Part shown: positions 7,973 through 58,911 of the stretch, one piece after another
How positions within the stretch are numbered: the first letter of the stretch is position 1
Layout of the letters: every line of letters begins with the position of its first letter
Source of the DNA: Hydrogenophaga sp.
GTDB taxonomy: Bacteria > Pseudomonadota > Gammaproteobacteria > Burkholderiales > Burkholderiaceae_C
Assembly (NCBI RefSeq): GCF_014773545.1
Contig: NZ_SDDV01000006.1
Location: forward strand, 1-64,000
Length of the DNA: 64,000 nucleotides
Direction: 5' to 3'
The notes under the pieces: model-generated
The model's input: only the letters and a program-made list of their open reading frames with translations
Databases searched by the model: none
Told to the model about the DNA's origin: nothing
Made by a program: the position numbers and the translations under genes

Positions 7973-8607
7973 GCTACAGCGTCAAGGAAATCTTCTACAC
8001 CTTGCAAGGTGAGGGCGCGCAAGCGGGCCTGGCGGCGGTGTTTTGCCGCTTGGCCGGCTGCAACCTCTGGAGCGGGCGCGAGGCCGACCGTGCCAGCGCC
8101 GTCTGCCGCTTTTGCGACACCGACTTCGTCGGCACCGACGGCAGCCACGGCGGCAAATACACGAGCGCCGACGCCCTGGCCGATGGCATCGAGGCGCACT
8201 GGCCGACCCCATCGCACGCGCAGCGCCTGTGCGTGCTGACCGGCGGTGAACCGCTGTTGCAGCTCGATGCGGCCTTGCTCGACGCCTTGCACCGGCGCGG
8301 ATTCCGCGTCGCTGTCGAGAGCAACGGCACGCTGGCTGCGCCGCCCGGCATTGACTGGCTGTGCATCAGCCCCAAGGCCGGCGCCGACTGGGTGCAGCAC
8401 AGCGGGCAAGAGCTCAAACTGGTCTGGCCGCAAGCGGGGTTCGATCTGGCACGGCTGGCGCAGACGGGCGACTTTGCGCACCGCTTCCTGCAGCCCATGG
8501 ACGGGCCGCAACAGGGCGCCCACACCGCCCTGTGCATCGACGCTTGTCTGCGTGACCCGCGCTGGCGCCTGAGCCTGCAAAGCCACAAAATCTGTGGCAT
8601 TCGCTGA
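7969..8607 (+). CDS. queE: 7-carboxy-7-deazaguanine synthase
   Basis: This 212-residue radical SAM enzyme rearranges 6-carboxytetrahydropterin to 7-carboxy-7-deazaguanine on the way to queuosine. The cluster-binding cysteines are spaced CX14CX2C (GCNLW... to VCRFCDTD, about residues 28-46) instead of the canonical CX3CX2C. This is a known variant described for Burkholderia-type QueE. The GEGAQAG and TGGEPLLQ motifs are present. The start is fixed by the ATGA overlap with nadB. queD follows 20 nt downstream, so the two sequential enzymes are paired. Confidence 0.93.
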
Positions 8608-8627
8608 ATTTGAAATCCGCTACTGCC

Positions 8628-9026
8628 ATGAAGCTCACCATCAGTCAACGTTTCTTTTTCGACGCCGCGCACACACTCCAACGCGAAATCGAAGCCGAAG
8701 GCAGCCGCCGCATCCACGGCCACAGCTACAAGGCCGAAGTCAGCCTCAGTGCCGCACTCGATGCCCGCAGCGGCATGGTGCTGGACCTGGGCCTGCTGCG
8801 CCAGCGGCTCGAGCAGGTGCGCTTGCAACTCGATCACCACTTTCTGGACGAAGTGCCCGGGTTGGGACCGGCCACGCTGGAAAACCTCTGCCTGTTCATT
8901 GCCCGAGCCTTGCCCGAACTGGCGCCGCAACTCACGCGCGTGCGGGTCTGGCGCGAAGCGGTGGGCGACGCCTGCGTGCTCGATCTGCGGCCGTACGCAC
9001 CAGCGCCAGCAGATCGGTCGGTCTGA
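8628..9026 (+). CDS. queD: 6-carboxytetrahydropterin synthase
   Basis: This 132-residue PTPS-fold enzyme makes 6-carboxytetrahydropterin from dihydroneopterin triphosphate, the substrate for QueE. The zinc-binding histidines are visible in FFFDAAHTL and in RIHGHSY. The LDHHFLDEV and PATLENLCLFIA segments are typical of the family. I start at ATG 8628 (MKLTISQRF); an in-frame TTG at 8610 would add six residues without family similarity. Confidence 0.93.
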   Translation: MKLTISQRFFFDAAHTLQREIEAEGSRRIHGHSYKAEVSLSAALDARSGMVLDLGLLRQRLEQVRLQLDHHFLDEVPGLGPATLENLCLFIARALPELAPQLTRVRVWREAVGDACVLDLRPYAPAPADRSV

Positions 9027-9138
9027 ATCCGCGCGACCCATGATGTGCTGCGACACGGCGCTGGCCAGGGGTTGAGCCCGAGCAACGGGGGTGAATCTTC
9101 ATCTGGGGGCGGTGTGTGCGGGTGGGGCTTCGACAGGC

Positions 9139-9222
9139 TCAGCCCGAACGGAGGTGAAATCAGCCCGAACGGGGGTGAAATCAACCCGAACGGAGGTGAA
9201 ATCAGTCTGAACGGATGCGAAA
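9139..9222. repeat. Four 21-bp tandem repeats (CAGCCCGAACGGAGGTGAAAT)
   Basis: Four consecutive 21-bp units run from 9139 to 9222, with increasing divergence toward the right. They are preceded by TTCGACAGGCTCAGCC, which together with the first unit forms the dispersed element also found near 21.5, 33.6 and 62.4 kb. They fill the space between the convergent ends of queD and the pabB/C gene. Confidence 0.85.
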
Positions 9223-9224
9223 TT

Positions 9225-10988
9225 TCATTCAGGCTTGGCGCCTACGCATTCGGCCGCCAGCCAGCCGCGCAAGCTGTTGATCCAGGCCCAGGCCTGCACG
9301 CGCGGCAGATCGTCCAAGTGCACCACCGCTTCGACCAGCCGCCCCTGGCGCAGCCAGTGCGCGCGGCCAACGCCGTCGAGCAAGCCGCAGTGCAGCGCCG
9401 GCGTGACCCAACGGCCGTCGATCAGCAGCGCGAGGTTGGCGCGCGTGCATTCGGTCAGTTCGCCGCGCGGGTTCCACAGCACGGTGTCAAACAGCGTCGG
9501 GTCGGTTGATGCGGCGGCGGCGTCGTAGTGGGCGCGGCGGGTGGTTTTGAAGCGCACGAATTCGCTGCTCGCTGCCTCGAAAGCGCTGGCCGCCAATTGC
9601 AGCCGCACCGGCGTCGGGGTGGCTTCGAGGGGGAACGCCTCGGCGTGCACCTGCGCCTGCGCGTCAAGCCGCAAGCGCAGGCGCCAAGCGCCTTGCGGGT
9701 GCTGCACGGCCAAGGCGTGCAGGGCGGCGCGCACAGCGGCGTCGGGCCAGGGGTAGCCGAAATGCGCGGCGGCGCGCGCCATGCGCTCCAGGTGGGCGGG
9801 GGCGTGGTCGTATGCGCCGTCCTGCAGCGCCAGGGTTTGCAGCAGCTCGAACGGCGCGCTGGCGCGCTCCAGAAAGGCGCGCTTATGCTGCCATTCGGCC
9901 CACTCGCCGCTGGCGCTGGCGTCGGCCGTGATGCCGCTGCCAATGCCGCAGCGCAGCCGTCCGGCGCGCGCACTGACGCTGCGGATGGCGACGTTGAAGG
10001 TGGCCGCGCCGCCGGGCCGTAGCACGCCGATGGCGCCGCAGTACACGCCGCGCGGCTGCGGCTCGAGTGCGTGGATCATGCGCATGGCTTGCACCTTGGG
10101 CGCGCCGGTGACCGAGCCGCAGGGAAACAGCGCTGCAAACACGTCGGCCAAGGTGGTGCCTGCGCGGGTGCGCGCGCGCACGTCAGAGCTCATCTGCCAG
10201 ACCGTCGGCAGCGCCGTCAGGCCAAACAGGTGCGGTACCGCCACCGAGTGCGGCAGCGCCAGGCGCGAGACGTCGTTGCGGATCAGGTCGACGATCATCA
10301 CGTTTTCGGCCCGCTCCTTGGGCGATGCGCGCAAGCGCTCGGCCTGCCTTGCATCGTCGCTCGGGTCTGCGCCGCGCGCAGCCGTGCCCTTGATCGGACG
10401 CATCAGCAACTGATTGTCCTGCCAGTGAAAAAACAGCTCGGGCGAAACCGACAGCAATTGCTCGTCGCCGCTGTCGATATAAGCGGCGTAGCCGCCCGGT
10501 TGTGCGCGTTGCAGCGCTTGGAACAGCGCCAGCGCGTCGCCTTGCAGCTCGCCGTGCAGCGAGGCGGTGTAATTGACCTGATAGAGCTCGCCGGCTTCGA
10601 TGGCGCGCGCGATGCGCTCCAGTTGCCGGTCAAAATCGGCGCGCGCCAGGCCGCTGCTCCACTGCGCCCGCGCGGCCGCTCCGGGCTCTATGGCCGGCCA
10701 GGGCAGTGCCGCCGCGTAGACGCCAAACCAGGCCAGCGGGCCATCGGGCGCATGCACCTCAAACGCGCTGTCGAACGCCGCCGCCGCTTCATAGCGCAGG
10801 TAGCCGACGCACCAGCAGCCCTGCTGTGCGGCCCGCTCAACCTGCGCCAGCAGCGGGCGCACCTGCTCGGGCTGGTGCGCCACCAGCGTGTGCAGCGCCG
10901 GCCCGAAGGCGCAGCGCAGGGCGGCGCCGGGGTCGGTGGCGTCGGGGGCGGCAAAGTCGATCAGCGTCGCCACGGTGGCCCACGTCAA
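9225..10988 (-). CDS. pabB: Aminodeoxychorismate synthase component I fused to aminodeoxychorismate lyase
   Basis: This 587-residue fusion makes p-aminobenzoate for folate. The N-terminal two thirds is a chorismate-binding PabB domain, with the catalytic-lysine motif [10 protein letters not shown] near residue 200 and the GAPKVQAM and GVYCGAIG motifs after it. The C-terminal third (about 380-587) is a PLP-dependent class IV aminotransferase-like lyase of PabC type ([20 protein letters not shown]). Fused PabB-PabC proteins are known in proteobacteria. Its start overlaps the nadA stop by 4 nt, so it is the last gene of a nadC-nadA-pab operon. Confidence 0.9.
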
Positions 10989-50285: not shown

Positions 50286-51167
50286 GTGGACTTTTTTTTT
50301 CGTCTCCTCTTCATTGTCTTGAGCAAGCTGCCGTTGCCGCTGCTGCATGCGGGTGGCATGGTGCTCGGCTGGGCCAGTTTTCTGCTCTCGCGCCGCTACC
50401 GCCAGCGCCTCTTGAGCCATGCCCGGCAGGCCGGGCAGTCGCGTTGGCTGGCGCTGGCTGCGGTGGGCGAGGCCGGCAAGATGGCGGCCGAGTTGCCGCG
50501 CCTGTGGCTGGGGCGGCCGGTGCAAGTGGGTTGGGAAGGCGCGGCCCACATCGAAGCCGCGCTGGCGCACGGCCGCGGCGTGTTGTTTCTGACGCCGCAT
50601 CTGGGTTGTTTCGAGGTCGCCGGGCAGGCGCTGGCGGCGCGCTTTGGAGATCGCTTGCCGCTGACCGGCTTGTACCGCCCGGCGCAGCAGCCCTGGCTGC
50701 GCGAGATCATGCGCAGCGCGCGCAACCGTCCGGGTCTGCACACCGTGCCGACCACGCTGGCCGGTGTGCGGCAGTTGATCCGCGCACTCAAGGCCGCGCA
50801 AGCGGTGATCTTGCTGCCTGACCAGGTGCCGCCGCAGGGGCAGGGCGTCTGGGCCGCATTCCACGGCCGTCCGGCCTATACCGTGACCTTGCCGGCCCGG
50901 CTGGCGCACAGCAGCGGTGCGCAACTGCTGCTGATCTGGGGCGAGCGCTTGCGCTGGGGGCGCGGCTATCTGGTGCACGTGCGGCCATTTCTTGCGGGCG
51001 GCGGCGCGGCGCTGGCGCTGGATGCGCAAGCAGCGGCGCGGCAAATCAACCAGGCCATGGAAGCGCTGGTGCGAGAATGCCCGCAGCAATACCTGTGGTC
51101 TTACCACCGCTTCAAGCAACCCGCGCCGCCGGCGCCGGCACACGCAGCGGTGCCGGGGCATGACTGA
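50286..51167 (+). CDS. Lipid A biosynthesis late acyltransferase (LpxL/HtrB-like), copy 1
   Basis: This 293-residue inner-membrane acyltransferase has an N-terminal hydrophobic segment (FFFRLLFIVLSKLPLPLLHAGG). The HX4(D/E) catalytic motif is HLGCFE in FLTPHLGCFEV at about residue 102. LPDQVPPQGQGVWAAFHG is the second conserved block. Family members add secondary acyl chains to lipid A. It starts at GTG 50286; the ribosome-binding site is weak. A second paralogue follows 21 nt downstream. The acyl chain and site are not predictable. Confidence 0.88.
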   Translation: MDFFFRLLFIVLSKLPLPLLHAGGMVLGWASFLLSRRYRQRLLSHARQAGQSRWLALAAVGEAGKMAAELPRLWLGRPVQVGWEGAAHIEAALAHGRGVLFLTPHLGCFEVAGQALAARFGDRLPLTGLYRPAQQPWLREIMRSARNRPGLHTVPTTLAGVRQLIRALKAAQAVILLPDQVPPQGQGVWAAFHGRPAYTVTLPARLAHSSGAQLLLIWGERLRWGRGYLVHVRPFLAGGGAALALDAQAAARQINQAMEALVRECPQQYLWSYHRFKQPAPPAPAHAAVPGHD

Positions 51168-51188
51168 GCGCCTGCCCGCTGGTTGCGC

Positions 51189-52118
51189 ATGTCGTTAAAA
51201 AGCTTGTATCAACACGCTGTGCTGCCTTGGCTGCGGCGCTGTGGCAACCGGTTCGGGCTGGGTTTCATGCGCCTGATGGCGCGGCTGCCCTTGACTTGGG
51301 TGCGCGGCATCGGTTGGCTGCTCGGGCGGGTGCTGCACGTTCTGGTGCGGCGGCGCCGGCGCATCGCGCGCGCCAACTGGGCCTTGTGTTTTCCGCACCA
51401 GAGCGCGCAGCAGGTGCGGCTGGCTGTGCGGCGGCACTTCGTGTTGTATGCCCAGGCCTGGCTCGATCGCGGCTGGCTCTGGGGTGCCGACGAAGCCACT
51501 GTGCGCTCGCGCCTGCACCTGGTGGGGGCGCTGCACGAGTTGCAAGGCAGCGCGCCGACGCTGATTTTTGCCCCGCACTTCCTGGGTATGGACGCTGGCG
51601 GCAGCGCGCTGGCGCTGGGGGTGCAGCGGCCGTTTGCCAGCGTCTACACCCGCCAGCGCAACGCGGCGGTCGATCGCTGGCTTCGGGCGGGTCGCCTGCG
51701 CTTTGGCCAAGGGCAATTGATTGAGCGCCGCCAAGGCCTGCGTGGCGCGGTGCAGGCCTTGCGCGCGGGTGCTGCGCTCTACATCCTGCCCGATATGGAC
51801 ATGGGGCGACAGGGGTCGGTGTTCGTGCCCTTTTTTGGCATTCCGGCGGCCACCGTGCCGACCTTGGCGCGGCTGGCACGGCTGACTTCGGCCAAGGTGG
51901 TGCCCGTCATCAGCCGCCTGACGCCGCAGGGCTACGAGGTGCAGGTGCTGCCGGCCTGGAGTGACTACCCCGGCGTTGACGTGCAGGCCGACACCGCTTT
52001 GATGAATCAGCGGCTCGAACACATGATTCTGACCATGCCCGAGCAGTACTACTGGGTACACCGGCGCTTTAAGACGCGGCCGCCGGGTGAGCCGCCGCTG
52101 TACCCCACCGGCCTATGA
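51189..52118 (+). CDS. Lipid A biosynthesis late acyltransferase (LpxL/HtrB-like), copy 2
   Basis: This 309-residue paralogue of the preceding protein has HX4D as HFLGMD in FAPHFLGMDAGG, and YILPDMDMGRQGSVFVPFFG as the second block. RRRRRIARANWALCFP is the usual basic patch after the membrane anchor. Two tandem acyltransferases suggest two different secondary acylations. I use ATG 51189; a TTG two codons upstream is possible. It is convergent with engB. Confidence 0.88.
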   Translation: MSLKSLYQHAVLPWLRRCGNRFGLGFMRLMARLPLTWVRGIGWLLGRVLHVLVRRRRRIARANWALCFPHQSAQQVRLAVRRHFVLYAQAWLDRGWLWGADEATVRSRLHLVGALHELQGSAPTLIFAPHFLGMDAGGSALALGVQRPFASVYTRQRNAAVDRWLRAGRLRFGQGQLIERRQGLRGAVQALRAGAALYILPDMDMGRQGSVFVPFFGIPAATVPTLARLARLTSAKVVPVISRLTPQGYEVQVLPAWSDYPGVDVQADTALMNQRLEHMILTMPEQYYWVHRRFKTRPPGEPPLYPTGL

Positions 52119-52969: not shown

Positions 52970-53587
52970 ATGAAATTGTCTGCCTCACTTCTTTGTGTCG
53001 CTGCCGCTGCAGCCTTGTCGCTCAGCGTTCAGGCCCAGCAAGTCGTTCCCGATCTGACCCGGGGTGCGGCACTGTACAACCAAATGTGCATGGTCTGCCA
53101 CGGAGTGAACGGCAATTCGACCATGCCGGCCAATCCGAGCCTGGCGCAGCAGCACCCAGAATATCTGATCAAGCAGTTGCAAGACTATAAGTCGGGCAAG
53201 CGCGAGAGCGCGATCATGAGAGGTTTTGCCGCCGCGCTGTCCGACGCCGATAAGCGCGACATTTCTTTCTGGCTGGCAGCTCAGACCAAGACGCCGGGTT
53301 ACGCGCAAGCGGACATAGAAAGCGTGCAACTGGGCAAGCGCATCTTCCGCGGCGGCATTGCCGATCGCCGCATCGCTTCCTGCGCGGCCTGCCATGGCCC
53401 TGGTGGTGCCGGCATTCCGGCTCAGTTCCCGCGTCTGGCCGGCCAGCATGCCGAGTACACCATCAGCCAGATGAAGGCGTTTCGGGACGGCACGCGCAAG
53501 AACAGTCCCATGATGGCGGGCGTGGCCGCACGCATGAACGACCGCGAAATCCGCGCCGTGTCGGACTACATCGCTGGTTTGCGTTAA
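52970..53587 (+). CDS. Diheme cytochrome c4
   Basis: This 205-residue periplasmic electron carrier has a signal peptide (MKLSASLLCVAAAAALSLSVQAQ) and two CXXCH heme sites, CMVCH near residue 40 and CAACH near 140. Each half is a class I c-type domain with distal Met candidates (AIMRGFAAAL and SPMMAGVAA). Cytochrome c4 usually feeds terminal oxidases. Its heme attachment would use ResB/CcsB encoded 3 kb downstream; in related genomes these genes are often adjacent, but here the gnn-lpxA operon lies between. Confidence 0.93.
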   Translation: MKLSASLLCVAAAAALSLSVQAQQVVPDLTRGAALYNQMCMVCHGVNGNSTMPANPSLAQQHPEYLIKQLQDYKSGKRESAIMRGFAAALSDADKRDISFWLAAQTKTPGYAQADIESVQLGKRIFRGGIADRRIASCAACHGPGGAGIPAQFPRLAGQHAEYTISQMKAFRDGTRKNSPMMAGVAARMNDREIRAVSDYIAGLR

Positions 53588-53620
53588 AGCACGCAGTCCG
53601 GGCGGCGCCCCAGCCCCGGT

Positions 53621-54388
53621 TCAGCGAAAGTGCGCAAAACCGCGCCGCGATGTGCGGATGAAGGCCGCCAGTTGCTGCACCGCCGGGCTGTTTTGGGCTT
53701 GCAACTCGTCCAGAATAGACGCCAGCTCGCGCAGCGAGCGCAGAGCCTGGAACGCTCGTTTCAACGCCGCCATCTCGCTGGCCGCCCAGCCGGCGCGGCG
53801 CAGCCCGACCACATTGAGAGCGCGCGCGCGGCCCGGGTTGCCGTCGGTGATGGCAAAGGGCAGACAGTCTTGGCTGACGCGGGCGCTGGCGGCCACCAGC
53901 GCCAGCGGGCCGACACGGCAGAACTGGTGCAGCGTGACCGCGCCCGAGATGAAGGCGCGCTCGCCGATCTCGACATGGCCGCCCAGCAGCGCGCCGTTGG
54001 CCAGCACCACCCGGTCGGCCAGCGTGCAGTCGTGCGCAACGTGGCTGTAGGCCATGAGAAAACAGCCGCTGCCGACGCGGGTGACGCCGCCGGCGTGGTT
54101 GCTGCGGTGTACCGTCACACCCTCGCGCAAGCGGTTGTCATCGCCGATTTCAACCCAGCTTTCGCAGGGCTGAAATTTGAAGTCCTGTGGTTCGCCACCC
54201 AACACCACGTGCTCGGCCAGGTGGTTGTTGCGCCCGAGCCGGGTGTAGCGCTTGACGACGGCGTGGCTGGCGATCTGGCAGCCGTCGCCGATTTCGGTCT
54301 GGGCTTCGATCACCGCGTAGGGGCCCACGCTGACGCCCTGGCCGATGCGGGCGCTGTCGTCGATCAGGGCGGTGTGGTGGATGCTCAT
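53621..54388 (-). CDS. lpxA: LpxA-family acyl-ACP N/O-acyltransferase
   Basis: This 255-residue left-handed beta-helix protein follows LpxA throughout. The catalytic HxxH region is SHVAHDC, with GGHV and LHQFC for the other conserved histidines. Compared by eye with E. coli LpxA, the chain-length ruler Gly173 is replaced by Ala (LVAASARV), and Glu200 by Val (LNVVGL). It is the last gene of gnnA-gnnB-lpxA, coupled to gnnB by an ATGA overlap. In Acidithiobacillus and Leptospira such an LpxA acylates the 3-amino group of UDP-GlcNAc3N. That is the best guess here; ordinary O-acylation remains possible. Confidence 0.87.
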   Translation of the reverse strand: MSIHHTALIDDSARIGQGVSVGPYAVIEAQTEIGDGCQIASHAVVKRYTRLGRNNHLAEHVVLGGEPQDFKFQPCESWVEIGDDNRLREGVTVHRSNHAGGVTRVGSGCFLMAYSHVAHDCTLADRVVLANGALLGGHVEIGERAFISGAVTLHQFCRVGPLALVAASARVSQDCLPFAITDGNPGRARALNVVGLRRAGWAASEMAALKRAFQALRSLRELASILDELQAQNSPAVQQLAAFIRTSRRGFAHFR

Positions 54389-55485
54389 GCGTGGTGGGCC
54401 GCCAGCACCAGGTCGGCAATGTGGTCGATCTGGTTTGGTTTGAGCAAGGGGGAGATGGGTAGCGAAATGACTTTTTGCACCATGCGCTCGGTCACCGGAA
54501 GCTCCAGAGCAGCGTATTGCTGGCCGTACAGTTCTTGCCGGTGCAGCGCAATCGGGTAATAAATGGCATTGCCGACGCCGGCGCCGGTGAGCGCGGCGGC
54601 GATCGCGTCGCGTCGCTCGCTTTGCACGGTGTATTGGTGAAACACGTGTCGACCGTGGCCGTCTTCGTGCGGGGTGACGATGCCGCTGCCGGCAAAACGC
54701 GCGTTGTAGGCGTGCGCAACGCACCGGCGCAGCCGGTTGAATTCGTCGATGCGCTTGAGCTTGACGCGCAAAACGACGGCTTGCAGTTCGTCGAGCCGGC
54801 TGTTGTAGCCCAGCACCTCGTGGTGGTAGCGCACGCGGCTGCCGTGGCTGGCGAGCACGCGCACCTGCGCGGCCAGGCGGTCGTCGTCGGTCACCACCAT
54901 GCCGCCGTCGCCGAAAGCGCCCAGGTTTTTGCTGGGGTAGAACGAGAAGCAGCCCAAGTCACCGTAGGCGCCTGATTTTTTGCCGCCGTAGTCGGCGCCG
55001 AAAGACTGGGCGGCGTCTTCGATCAGGTGCAGGCCGTGCTGGCGGCACAGCGCCGCCAGCGGCTCCAGCCGTGCCGGCTGGCCGTACAGGTGCACCGGCA
55101 CGATGGCGCGGGTGCGCGGCCCGATGGCGGCGGCAACCTGTGCCGGGTCCAGGTTGTAGCTTAGCGGGTCGATGTCGACGAATACCGGCCGGGCGCCGCA
55201 CAGCGAAATGGTCGAAGCGCTGGCCAAGAAGGTGAACGCCGTGGTGATGACTTCGTCGCCGGCCTGTATGCCGCAGGCGCGCAGCGCCAGCAACAAGGCG
55301 TCGGTGCCCGAGGCGCAGGCAATGGCGTGCCGGCTGCCGCAGTAGGCCGCGACTTCTTGCTCGAAGGCACGCACGTTGGGCCCGCCGATGTACTGGGTGG
55401 CAGCGAGTGCGGCCAGCAGCACCGGGTTCAGTTCGTCCTGGAGCAGTTCGTATTCTGCCTTGAGGTCTACCATGGGGATGTTCAT
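54385..55485 (-). CDS. gnnB: DegT/DnrJ/EryC1 sugar aminotransferase, GnnB-like
   Basis: This 366-residue PLP-dependent sugar aminotransferase begins IPMVDLKAEYELLQDEL. The PLP lysine lies in SFYPSKNLGAFGDGGMV (about residue 185), and EDAAQSFGADY supplies the conserved Asp. Members aminate nucleotide keto-sugars. Position between a GnnA-like oxidoreductase and an lpxA with 4-nt overlaps on both sides supports amination of the 3-keto UDP-GlcNAc intermediate. The substrate is inferred from context; O-antigen amino sugars are the alternative. Confidence 0.85.
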   Translation of the reverse strand: MNIPMVDLKAEYELLQDELNPVLLAALAATQYIGGPNVRAFEQEVAAYCGSRHAIACASGTDALLLALRACGIQAGDEVITTAFTFLASASTISLCGARPVFVDIDPLSYNLDPAQVAAAIGPRTRAIVPVHLYGQPARLEPLAALCRQHGLHLIEDAAQSFGADYGGKKSGAYGDLGCFSFYPSKNLGAFGDGGMVVTDDDRLAAQVRVLASHGSRVRYHHEVLGYNSRLDELQAVVLRVKLKRIDEFNRLRRCVAHAYNARFAGSGIVTPHEDGHGRHVFHQYTVQSERRDAIAAALTGAGVGNAIYYPIALHRQELYGQQYAALELPVTERMVQKVISLPISPLLKPNQIDHIADLVLAAHHA

Positions 55486-56435
55486 GCGCGCAGGTCTTTC
55501 GTGCGTTGCTGGGGTTGCTGCATTTGACGGCCGAGTTCGAGCGCCAGCGCCAGTGCACGCCGTCCGGCCACGCCGTCCACCACCGCCGCTGTCTGCTGGC
55601 GCACCGCCGCCACAAAGGCGCTGATCTCGCTGTGCAGCGCGTCGCCGGGCGGCACCTCGATGGCCTCGCTTGCCAGCGGCTGCTGCGGGTCCGGGTGGCG
55701 GCGCACCGCGCTCAGTTGGCGCGTGCCAAAGTCGATCGAGAGGTATTCGTCTTTCTGGAACAGGCGCATCTTGCGCAGCGTGCTGGTGCTGACACGGCTG
55801 GCGCTCAGGTTGGCCACGCAGCCGTTGTCAAACTCGATGCGGGCGTTTCCGATGTCGATGCCATCGGTCAATACCGGCACGCCGCTGGCGCGCAGCTCGC
55901 GCACCGGGCTGTTGATCACCGACAAAATCAGATCGAGGTCGTGGATCATCAGGTCGAGCACCACGCTGACGTCGGTGCCGCGCGGCTTAAAGGGTGCCAG
56001 TCGGTGCGCCTCGATGAAGATCGGTTTTTGAATGCGCGCGCGCAGCGCCAGCCAGGCCGGGTTGAAGCGCTCCAGGTGGCCGACCTGCAACAGCCGCTGC
56101 TGGCGCTCGGCCAGTTGGATCAGGGCGTCGGCCTGCGCTACGGTCTGGGTGATTGGTTTTTCGACCAGCACGTGCACGCCGGCCGCCAGGCAGTCTTGCA
56201 CCACCTCGAAATGCCGCTCGGTCGGCACCGCCACCGAAACCAGATCGATCTGGCCCAGCAGCATGCGATAGTCGCTCACGCAGGCCACAGCCAGTTCGGC
56301 TGCCACTGCGGCGGCACGCCCAGGGTCGGCATCGGCCACGCCGACCAGCTCGACGCCCTCAATGGCGGCGTATTTCTGGGCATGAAAGCGGCCCAGGTGG
56401 CCCACGCCGATGACGGCGGCGCGCAGATTTTTCAT
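55482..56435 (-). CDS. gnnA: Gfo/Idh/MocA nucleotide-sugar dehydrogenase, GnnA-like
   Basis: This 317-residue oxidoreductase has an N-terminal Rossmann motif (AVIGVGHLGRFHAQKY) and the catalytic EKPITQTVAQAD segment near residue 95. VGHLERFNPAW and LDLMIHDLDLIL follow. GnnA oxidises the 3-OH of UDP-GlcNAc so that GnnB can aminate it. The start ATG 56435 has GGAG 10 nt upstream. It is the first gene of the three-gene operon and overlaps gnnB by 4 nt. Specificity is inferred from operon context. Confidence 0.83.
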   Translation of the reverse strand: MKNLRAAVIGVGHLGRFHAQKYAAIEGVELVGVADADPGRAAAVAAELAVACVSDYRMLLGQIDLVSVAVPTERHFEVVQDCLAAGVHVLVEKPITQTVAQADALIQLAERQQRLLQVGHLERFNPAWLALRARIQKPIFIEAHRLAPFKPRGTDVSVVLDLMIHDLDLILSVINSPVRELRASGVPVLTDGIDIGNARIEFDNGCVANLSASRVSTSTLRKMRLFQKDEYLSIDFGTRQLSAVRRHPDPQQPLASEAIEVPPGDALHSEISAFVAAVRQQTAAVVDGVAGRRALALALELGRQMQQPQQRTKDLRA

Positions 56436-56674
56436 CGAAAACAAACTCCGGTTGGAAACCCACCCCTTCAGGGGGAATAATCTAACGCAGGATGAGCGCA
56501 AGCTCTTCCGTGTTGTTTCGCCCGGCCAGTCCGGGTGCGGATTGAAACATGGCGATGCTTGTGCGGCTGAGCGCCGCAGCAGCTTGTGCAGCGCCCCAAT
56601 TATGGCGGTATTGCATCGGCGGGCCGGGTCTTTGCGCTGCGTTCGCGCACATGTGGGCGGCAGGCGCATAATGC

Positions 56675-56713
56675 GCACGCTGCCTTGTCCGTCAGGCAGC
56701 GTGCTGTTTTTTT
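56675..56713 (+). terminator. Intrinsic terminator/attenuator just upstream of resB
   Basis: GCACGCTGCCT (56675-56685) and AGGCAGCGTGC (56694-56704) form an 11-bp stem with an 8-nt loop, followed by TG and seven T (56707-56713). It lies only 36 nt before the resB ATG. CATAAT (56667-56672) just before it could be a -10 box. It either ends a short upstream transcript or attenuates resB. I see no gene between 56436 and 56674. Confidence 0.8.
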
Positions 56714-56748
56714 CGGTCAGCCCCCATCTTTCCCCCCCCACTTTTTCC

Positions 56749-58911
56749 ATGAGCGCATCGACCCAAGGTCTGCAACTGCGCACCGGTTCGCGCATTTTGG
56801 GCAACTGGGTCGAGTTGCTCTCATCGATGCGGTTTGCCATTTCCTTGCTGGCGGTGATCTGCATCGCCTCGGTGATTGGCACCGTGGTCAAGCAGCACGA
56901 GCCGCTGAACAATTACGTCAATAAGTTCGGGCCGTTCTGGGCCGAGGTGTTCGCCAGCGCCCACCTGTTTTCGGTCTACAGCGCCTGGTGGTTCATCCTG
57001 ATCCTGGCCTTTTTGGTTGCCAGTACCAGTTTGTGCATTGCGCGTCAGACGCCCAAAATTTTTGCCGACTTCAGGGCTTACAAAGAAAACATGCGCGAGC
57101 AAAGCCTGCGCGCCTTTGCGAATCGGGCCGAAGCGGCGTTGAACGAAGCGCCGGAGCAGGCCGCGCAGCGCATGGGTCAAACCCTGCTGCGTTCGGGCTG
57201 GAGGGTCAAGTTGCAGTCGCGCCCCGGCCCGCAAGGCACCGGCTGGATGGTGGCGGCCAAAAAAGGCCGGGCCAACAAGATCGGCTATCTGGCCGCACAC
57301 AGCGCCATTGTGCTGATTTGCGTCGGCGCCCTGCTCGACGGCGACCTGATGGTGCGGGCACAGACCTGGTTCAACGGCAAGCAGGTGTATGCCGGCAGCG
57401 GCCTGATCGCCAACGTGCCGGCCCAGCACCGCATTTCGGCCAGCAACCCGACCTTCCGGGGCAATCTGCTGGTGACCGAAGGCGCTGGCGCCGACACCGC
57501 CATTCTGGTGCGGCCCGACGGCGTGCTGCTGCAAGAGTTGCCGTTTTCTATCGAGCTGAAAAAATTCATCGTCGAGTACCACGCCAGCGGACAACCCAAG
57601 CTGTTCGCCAGCGACATCGTGATTCACGATCACGACAGTGGTGCCAAAAGAAGCGCCCGGGTCGAAGTCAACCACCCGGTCAGCCACCGCGGCATCACCA
57701 TCTACCAGTCCAGCTTCAGCGACGGCGGCTCGCGCGTCAAGTTGCAGGCGCTGCCGCTGTCTGGCGCGCGGGCGCCGTTCGAGGTCGCGGGCGTGATCGG
57801 TGGCAGCGCCGAAATCGGTCTCGGCAGCGAGCGCTTCACCCTCGAATTCACCGACTTGCGCGTCCTCAACGTGGAAAACCTGGCGGCGATCGATGGCGCA
57901 GCGCTGGCCGCTCCGGCACCGACTGACCTGCGCCGCGCGATCGAGAGCCGCCTGGGCGCCGGCAACAAAACCGTGACCGAGCGCCATTTGCGCAACGTCG
58001 GACCGAGCATCACCTACAAGCTGCGCGACGCCGCCGGTCAGGCGCAGGAATTTCACAACTACATGCTGCCGATGGAGGTCGACGGTTTGCGCTTGTTCAT
58101 GTTCGGCGTGCGCGATGCGAGCGCCGAAGAATTTCGCTACCTGCGCATCCCGGCCGACGCGCAAGACAGTCTGGACGACTTTGTGCGCCTGCGCGTCGCG
58201 CTGGCCGATGCGGCGCTGCGTGAGCAGGCCGTGCAGCGTTTCGTCGCTGTGGCCGGGCAAAGCGGCGGCCCGCAGATGGCGGCGGCCTTGCGGGCTTCGG
58301 CGGCGCGCACCCTCGGTCTGTTTGCCGGTGCCGAGCAGGTCAACACGAGCTGGCCGCGCGCCGACGGTCAACCGCAGCCGGTGCGCGGCGGCCTGCCGGC
58401 GCTGTCGGTTTTTTTGGAGGCCAACGTGCCCGCGTCCGAACGCGAACGCGCCGGCGCCGTATTGGTGCAGGTGTTGCACGGCACGCTGTACGAATTGATG
58501 CAACTCAGCCGCGAGCGTGCCGCCTTGCCTGCACTGCCGCGCAGCGAGTTCACCCAGCGCTTCATGGCGGCGGCCGTCATCAGCCTGAGCGACAGCTTTT
58601 TTTACCATGCGCCTGTGGCCTTGCAGCTCAAGGATTTCGAGCACGTGCAGGCCAGCGTATTCCAGCTCGCGCGTGCGCCGGGTCAAAACATCGTTTATCT
58701 GGGTTGCTTGTTGCTGATCATCGGCATTTTTGCCATGCTCTACGTGCGCGAGCGTCGCGTCTGGGTTTGGCTGGCCCCCCGTGGCGAGCAGGGCGCACAG
58801 GCCAGCCTGGCTTTGTCGACGAATCGCAAGACCATGGAGTCTGACCAGGAGTTTGAACTGCTGAAAAGCCAGTTGCTCCACCGATCGGCGGCTGACACCA
58901 TCGGCGGCTGA
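56749..58911 (+). CDS. resB: Cytochrome c biogenesis protein ResB
   Basis: This 720-residue membrane protein of System II (Ccs) cytochrome c maturation has three N-terminal spans (FAISLLAVICIASVIGTVV, WWFILILAFLVASTSLCIA, AAHSAIVLICVGALLDG), a large periplasmic domain and a C-terminal span (IVYLGCLLLIIGIFAMLYV). The HPVSHRGITIYQSSFSDGGS segment is the ResB signature. With CcsB it delivers heme and reduced apocytochrome. The start ATG 56749 (MSASTQGLQL) is chosen by family length. Confidence 0.92.
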   Translation: MSASTQGLQLRTGSRILGNWVELLSSMRFAISLLAVICIASVIGTVVKQHEPLNNYVNKFGPFWAEVFASAHLFSVYSAWWFILILAFLVASTSLCIARQTPKIFADFRAYKENMREQSLRAFANRAEAALNEAPEQAAQRMGQTLLRSGWRVKLQSRPGPQGTGWMVAAKKGRANKIGYLAAHSAIVLICVGALLDGDLMVRAQTWFNGKQVYAGSGLIANVPAQHRISASNPTFRGNLLVTEGAGADTAILVRPDGVLLQELPFSIELKKFIVEYHASGQPKLFASDIVIHDHDSGAKRSARVEVNHPVSHRGITIYQSSFSDGGSRVKLQALPLSGARAPFEVAGVIGGSAEIGLGSERFTLEFTDLRVLNVENLAAIDGAALAAPAPTDLRRAIESRLGAGNKTVTERHLRNVGPSITYKLRDAAGQAQEFHNYMLPMEVDGLRLFMFGVRDASAEEFRYLRIPADAQDSLDDFVRLRVALADAALREQAVQRFVAVAGQSGGPQMAAALRASAARTLGLFAGAEQVNTSWPRADGQPQPVRGGLPALSVFLEANVPASERERAGAVLVQVLHGTLYELMQLSRERAALPALPRSEFTQRFMAAAVISLSDSFFYHAPVALQLKDFEHVQASVFQLARAPGQNIVYLGCLLLIIGIFAMLYVRERRVWVWLAPRGEQGAQASLALSTNRKTMESDQEFELLKSQLLHRSAADTIGG

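Follow-up and report, generated by a model that had tools for sequence, protein, structure and literature searches.

What lipid A is made by a bacterium that carries the genes for a 3-amino sugar and also keeps an ordinary LpxA acyltransferase? This question is raised by a locus of Hydrogenophaga sp. (RefSeq assembly GCF_014773545.1), analyzed here within a window of 64,000 nucleotides (contig NZ_SDDV01000006.1, positions 1 to 64,000). A first-pass annotation, made from the window's letters and open reading frames, had described a minus-strand operon of three genes, gnnA, gnnB and lpxA, joined by 4-nt overlaps at positions 53621–56435. The coordinates proved exact, and an ATGA overlap is found at both the gnnA/gnnB and the gnnB/lpxA junctions. 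We call the lpxA gene of this operon lpxA2, and lpxA1 the other of the two genes in the genome whose products score above the TIGR01852 cut-off. Judging from the protein sequences, gnnA-gnnB-lpxA2 very probably specifies a 3-amino variant of lipid A. By homology, GnnA would oxidize C3 of the sugar in uridine diphosphate N-acetylglucosamine (UDP-GlcNAc), GnnB would transaminate the oxidized sugar to the 3-amino analogue UDP-GlcNAc3N, and LpxA2 would transfer a 3-hydroxyacyl chain onto the new 3-amine. The LpxA2 product would then join the shared downstream line alongside the ordinary LpxA1 product. This chemistry and its genes are known; new are a self-contained cassette that coexists with an intact canonical LpxA, in a family with few such cassettes, and a strong tie of the Leptospira-type LpxA to GnnA.

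Identity of the operon products and linkage of LpxA2 to GnnA

The first-pass annotation had proposed looking elsewhere in the genome for a second lpxA, and lpxA1 is indeed present on contig C12 within an intact canonical lpxD-fabZ-lpxA1-lpxB cluster. LpxA2 reaches 282.6 bits against TIGR01852 (cut-off 231.05) and is also above the PRK05289 cut-off. The LpxA tree contains 96 rows, namely 92 of 129 extracted frames (three were dropped by length and 34 as identical cores) and four references. In this tree, LpxA2 belongs to a 30-row clade with the LpxA of Leptospira interrogans (support 100/92), apart from canonical LpxA, and 12 of the 30 rows, the window included, are gnn-linked. LpxA1, together with the proteins of other genus members, falls into the canonical clade of Escherichia coli LpxA. 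Leptospira LpxA prefers UDP-GlcNAc3N. Within its clade, LpxA2 is found in a five-row group with two Rhodocyclales proteins (90/87), yet it is nearer to those of genomes G667 and G757 (90/51); locus L045, at the base of the clade, was left out of counts and tests. LpxA2 was also considered as a mere duplicate of LpxA1, which was rejected, as the two proteins share 96 identical residues over 271 aligned columns and fall into different clades.

The active-site residues of LpxA2 are kept (His119, Asp120 and Gly137, corresponding to H125, D126 and G143 of E. coli), as are the equivalents of E. coli Q73, D74, H122, H160, N198 and R204; the catalytic residues of LpxA1 are retained as well. At E. coli R205, LpxA2 has Ala, as do 24 of the 30 clade rows, and Arg occurs in none of them. 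The roles of H125, D126, G143, G173, H191, N198 and R205 in E. coli LpxA are described in PMC6286764 (this and the other PMC papers are cited from excerpts). The ruler position 173 is occupied by Ala in LpxA2 and by Met in LpxA1; larger residues there favour 10-carbon chains in the E. coli enzyme (PMC6286764), so the two proteins may differ in chain length too.

Among PDB entries, 7bvj is the sole sequence that matches GnnA at E ≤ 1e-30 (E 1.5e-72; runner-up 3.7e-21), and the name WlbA is absent from all 27 PDB sequences matching at E ≤ 1e-8. The database labels 7bvj merely 'Oxidoreductase, NAD-binding'; we take it to be the GnnA of Acidithiobacillus ferrooxidans. On this assumption, the closest solved relative of the window protein would be a characterised GnnA, and not WlbA or an inositol dehydrogenase. 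A structural paper on A. ferrooxidans GnnA is cited by PMC8549069. The top NCBIfam family for GnnA is UDP-GlcNAc 3-dehydrogenase (NF040723, UDP-GlcNAcDh_Arch; E 1.5e-57). In the GnnA tree (96 rows including one reference, drawn from 112 frames), the window protein is sister to two Rhodocyclales GnnAs (95/95), its nearest relatives among the matches listed.

GnnB has Lys186 within a PSKNLG motif, presumably the lysine that binds pyridoxal phosphate. In a tree of 49 rows that include three references and were drawn from 64 frames, it groups with two Rhodocyclales GnnBs (100/96) and lies apart from WbpE, whose group has 4 rows on a branch of 1.42; the branches of loci L126, L129, L118 and L143 in this tree are long and little informative. 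No second close sugar aminotransferase was found in the genome, where GnnB matches only itself at E ≤ 1e-20, and GnnB reaches no NCBIfam cut-off.

The searches covered sampled genomes, 60 from the genus, 399 from the family and 369 from the class. Besides the window's genome, 24 class genomes were counted as having a Leptospira-type LpxA, and GnnA was found in all of them. They are the genomes of those loci, out of 29 others, that fall into the LpxA2 clade; they were chosen for likeness to LpxA2, and gnnA adjacency was already known in seven of them. Where gnnA is not adjacent to the Leptospira-type LpxA, GnnA is still present in 17 of 17 genomes versus 6 of 21 controls (Fisher p 3.5e-6). Partial matches account for three of the 17 (G488, G523, G652), and one match, in G690, was known beforehand from locus L069. 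The controls comprise 18 of 20 non-matching genomes (G001 and the 0.4-Mb G471 were excluded) and three genomes of family f159; G624 has GnnA and belongs to neither set. Another LpxA is held by 22 of the 24 genomes, in 20 beside fabZ and in two as fragments (G523, G798), and one LpxA is shown in G532 (81% complete) and G817. The tie is one-way, as five of the six GnnA-bearing controls have one LpxA and the sixth has two. Thus, two genotypes emerge: the combination of canonical LpxA, Leptospira-type LpxA and GnnA, which recurs, and GnnA accompanied by just one LpxA.

Two further arrangements were seen in the compared loci. In L049 (G626) and L050 (G481), both LpxAs lie in one cluster, lpxD-fabZ-lpxA1-gnnA-lpxA2-lpxB. 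In L091, L092, L097, L098, L108, L123, L124, L139 and L147, gnnA is located between lpxA and lpxB, the locus shows no gnnB match, and an unassigned stretch of ~0.8–1.3 kb, perhaps lpxI, precedes gnnA.

Best matches, trees, co-occurrence and context fit the identities given in the first-pass annotation, GnnA, GnnB and an LpxA of the dedicated type, and neither of the sequence results that the annotation had listed as refuting them (clustering with O-antigen sugar enzymes, or LpxA2 among ordinary O-acyltransferases) was seen. We infer the amine preference of LpxA2 from its clade and linkage. Several observations weigh against these assignments. GnnA scores 195.4 bits against an NF040723 cut-off of 450, so the name is not earned by that model, and 7bvj is not the sister of the window GnnA in its tree, where the deep forks are poorly supported (57/84). 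The deep forks of the GnnB tree lack resolution and the fork joining its groups is open, with no characterised GnnB among the rows; the gnnA-adjacent aminotransferases of L102 and L118 group with WbpE; and in the PDB the window protein best matches 7b0d, labelled glutamine--scyllo-inositol transaminase, as well as WbpE (3nyu, E 1.3e-93). Because of the open fork, these gnnA neighbours and these PDB matches, the name GnnB rests mostly on the operon. As for LpxA2, 17 of the 24 class genomes that share its LpxA type do not have gnnA next to lpxA, and LpxAs outside the Leptospira-type clade (Limnohabitans, many Desulfobacterota) also coexist with gnnA. Moreover, position 63 (E. coli numbering), often His in the clade, is Ala in LpxA2. 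A single residue marking amine-using LpxA was sought by alignment with little gain: His63 occurs in 5 of the 8 rows of the nearest group (which includes the window with its Ala), in 7 of 7 Limnohabitans-type LpxAs and in 0 of 29 canonical ones, but also in L049, one of a pair of canonical-type LpxAs not counted among the 29, and in just 2 of 25 other gnn-linked LpxAs.

Insertion site, origin and distribution in the family

The operon lies between cytC and resB (Table 1). Of 29 loci from genus relatives, 27 have these two genes side by side on one strand, and the other two end near or inside cytC. A conserved resB motif, ~27 codons into the gene, is found 239–273 nt past the cytC stop in the 18 relatives' loci where this could be measured; the distance from cytC to the resB start is 3.16 kb in the window. 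The adjacency in the relatives indicates that the cassette was gained at this site. Insertion edges and repeats were assessed by eye only, and by this means the intergenic motif conserved between cytC and resB in the relatives was not seen at either cassette edge. Also by eye, an inverted repeat resembling a hairpin, with a run of T after it, was noted on the plus strand at ~56690–56735, just 5' of resB.

The closest gnnA-gnnB-lpxA operons among the matches listed belong to two Rhodocyclales metagenome-assembled genomes, in loci L071 (64/67/58% identity) and L072 (63/66/54%). A foreign base composition was considered as a sign of transfer and rejected, as the G+C content at third codon positions (GC3) of the cassette, 0.83–0.86, is like that of the flanking genes. 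Hence the transfer was not recent, or the donor genome was of similar composition. Horizontal acquisition of gnnA-gnnB-lpxA2 as a self-contained module is probable. A second LpxA was seen in one other of the 60 genus genomes (G011, locus L066), where a full divergent lpxD-fabZ-lpxA-lpxB set shows 34–52% identity; this genome has 4% contamination, the extra set is either a contaminant contig or acquired, and there is no GnnA within the 16.7 kb read.

Among the 399 family genomes, GnnA was found at E ≤ 1e-50 in eight, representing 4 of 141 genera and three configurations. The Leptospira-type LpxA was found at E ≤ 1e-57 in the window's genome alone, three further matches being canonical; a protein of this type weaker than E 1e-57 would escape the search. 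These counts agree with the earlier statement that the pathway is not standard in Comamonadaceae. The presence of gnn genes is not unique to this organism in the family, however: Limnohabitans and another genus have gnnA-gnnB within an ordinary lpx operon, and six genomes of these two genera share the order lpxD-fabZ-lpxA-gnnA-gnnB-lpxB with a single LpxA of the resident type. In the third configuration, G257 has an LpxA-gnnA pair (L165, ~8029–9725) that groups with one Bdellovibrionaceae metagenome-assembled genome in both the LpxA and the GnnA trees; there is no gnnB match within the 16.9 kb read, and a separate canonical lpx cluster is present. Thus, the gnn carriers of the family represent three LpxA ancestries, and their GnnA clades differ too, with the same weakness of the deep GnnA forks.

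The single LpxAs of Limnohabitans and the other genus (L099, L106, L127, L152, L153, L154 and L157) all have R160, H63, L163 and N226. None of these residues was seen in the 27 canonical LpxAs compared, in all of which position 160 is His. These substitutions may represent an adaptation of an O-acyltransferase to the amine.

Table 1. Coordinates of the cassette, its edges and neighbouring genes in the window
Feature	Position	Strand	Description
gnnA	55482–56435	minus	Gfo/Idh-family UDP-GlcNAc 3-dehydrogenase (predicted), 317 aa
gnnB	54385–55485	minus	DegT/DnrJ/EryC1/StrS aminotransferase, 366 aa
lpxA2	53621–54388	minus	LpxA-family acyltransferase, Leptospira-type clade, 255 aa
33-nt gap, cytC stop to lpxA2 stop	53588–53620		Left edge of the cassette
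313-nt divergent gnnA/resB region	56436–56748		Right edge of the cassette; presumed site of the operon promoter (predicted)
cytC	52970–53587	plus	Dihaem cytochrome c (named by eye, no family search); left flank, adjoins resB in genus relatives, outside the pathway
resB	56749–58911	plus	resB/ccs1-like cytochrome c biogenesis gene (named by eye); right flank, outside the pathway
Two Lip_A_acyltrans genes	50286–51167, 51183–52118	plus	Lipid A late-acyltransferase family; nearby, possibly associated with the cassette

GGAG is located 10 nt 5' of the gnnA ATG. The Pfam assignments are GFO_IDH_MocA for GnnA (9.5e-31), DegT_DnrJ_EryC1 for GnnB (8.4e-121), and Hexapep (5.8e-30) together with Acetyltransf_11 (2.9e-17) for LpxA2. 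The genome is 2.21 Mb in size and 99.98% complete; it is the smallest among the sampled genus genomes of at least 90% completeness, the others having 3.2–6.3 Mb. The two late acyltransferase genes to which the first-pass annotation had drawn attention are present at 50286–52118, but at least one of them commonly occurs here in genus members that lack gnn genes. Specifically, 25 of the relatives' loci extend far enough to show the second gene; it adjoins engB in 13 of them and is not there in 12, so it is at home in the genus without the cassette. Elsewhere, gnnA directly adjoins lpxL-type genes in L071, L072, L075 and L126.

Predicted lipid A and alternative readings

The genome has gnnA, gnnB and two LpxAs, which is the gene set of a hybrid-backbone system. 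Since both LpxAs are kept, and given the precedents of Capnocytophaga canimorsus and Campylobacter jejuni, we lean, granted the pathway, towards a hybrid or mixed lipid A built from 2,3-diamino-2,3-dideoxyglucose (GlcN3N) and glucosamine (GlcN) and not an all-amide one. In such a molecule, GlcN3N would carry amide-linked chains, and GlcN ester- and amide-linked chains; the most likely hybrid form has GlcN3N in the distal and GlcN in the proximal position. The claim of the first-pass annotation that the lipid A has amide-linked chains is therefore supported by the genes as far as a 3-amino pathway is concerned, but retention of the canonical lpxA makes a hybrid or a mixture most likely, not an amide-only product. 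The downstream enzymes comprise a single LpxB and, for LpxH, one strong match (186.7 bits, just under the cut-off of 190.35; a second match has 36 bits), so both would have to accept both LpxA products.

A more detailed scenario can be offered tentatively. The lipid A would be asymmetric, with a short ester-linked chain placed by LpxA1 on GlcN and a different, perhaps longer, amide-linked chain placed by LpxA2 on GlcN3N, and sorting by LpxH and LpxB would keep the amide sugar distal. Canonical LpxA, Leptospira-type LpxA and GnnA together would then be a recurrent, transferable hybrid genotype of Gammaproteobacteria (in the wide GTDB sense), and the family would have gained gnn genes by three routes, only once as a full set.

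The strongest competitor, though unlikely, is an all-amide lipid A, in which LpxA2 outcompetes LpxA1 and nearly every molecule contains two GlcN3N residues. N-acylation is expected to be more favourable, O-acylation by LpxA being reversible and thermodynamically unfavourable (PMC6286764), and Leptospira, with the same LpxA type, is reported to have four amide-linked chains (a title cited in PMC10248169). However, LpxA1 retains its catalytic residues within an intact gene cluster, and the second LpxA kept in 22 of 24 genomes of this type suggests a need for both enzymes. It is rather improbable that the cassette, the sole one of its kind among the 60 sampled genus genomes, was acquired but is unused, silent or decaying: its three overlapping frames are intact, and their active sites conserved, in the smallest genus genome of the sample with at least 90% completeness, and their GC3 points to long residence or to a donor of similar composition. 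Finally, a role of the gnn genes in an O-antigen or other amino-sugar route of the WlbA/WbpE type, with LpxA2 as a second O-acyltransferase of another chain length, would accord with the relation of GnnB to WbpE, with the two WbpE-grouping gnnA neighbours elsewhere and with the residues at position 173, but it is most improbable and was rejected on the PDB matches of GnnA, which are not WlbA-like at the top, on the GnnB tree and on the singleton status of GnnB; the gene overlap with lpxA2, the co-occurrence of this LpxA type with GnnA, the separation of LpxA2 from ordinary O-acyltransferases, and the lack of any O-antigen or polysaccharide cluster recognised by eye among the window neighbours, where the flanks are cytC and resB, all speak against it.

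If the preferred hybrid or mixed backbone is correct, part of the lipid A of this organism would have the sturdier amide linkage. Lipid A linkage influences outer-membrane properties and the sensing of the cell by a host; in C. jejuni, loss of gnnA/gnnB is reported to increase Toll-like receptor 4 activation and peptide sensitivity (PMC8036547). A cassette that brings its own LpxA into a genome with an intact canonical one also offers a clean system for learning how hybrid backbones are ordered. In the literature searched, which lies largely outside subscription papers and was seen in part as excerpts, there is no example of GlcN3N lipid A from Betaproteobacteria, including Comamonadaceae, and nothing relevant on the lipid A of Limnohabitans and Comamonadaceae; GlcN3N is reported there for several other groups.

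Comparison with known systems

The same activities are expected for GnnA, GnnB and LpxA of A. ferrooxidans, and the window GnnA best matches 7bvj, which we presume to come from that organism. Unlike that system, the window trio is isolated between cytC and resB, away from the lpx cluster, and the genome also keeps a canonical LpxA. L. interrogans LpxA (3hsq) shares its clade with LpxA2, and the two proteins agree in having Ala at the position of R205 and Phe at that of Y77 in the E. coli enzyme. The Leptospira protein forms a long branch, however, and the two differ at E. coli K76 (Lys in LpxA2, Gly in Leptospira) and at position 63 (Ala and His, respectively). Limnohabitans, a member of the same family, also possesses GnnA and GnnB, but these group elsewhere and its single LpxA is of the resident type.

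The precedent for the predicted product is C. canimorsus, which combines lpxA, lpxA', gnnA and gnnB in one genome and whose hybrid GlcN3N'-GlcN backbone (>95%) was shown chemically (PMC3342949); a distal GlcN3N is also reported for C. jejuni (PMC7956469). C. canimorsus belongs to a different phylum and its lpxA, lpxA', lpxC and lpxD genes cluster (PMC3342949). Among the Rhodocyclales, L071 and L072 show the same gnnA-gnnB-lpxA order, and both genomes have a second, canonical LpxA; there, the operon is divergent from adjacent lpxL-type genes, whereas in Hydrogenophaga it is placed between cytC and resB.

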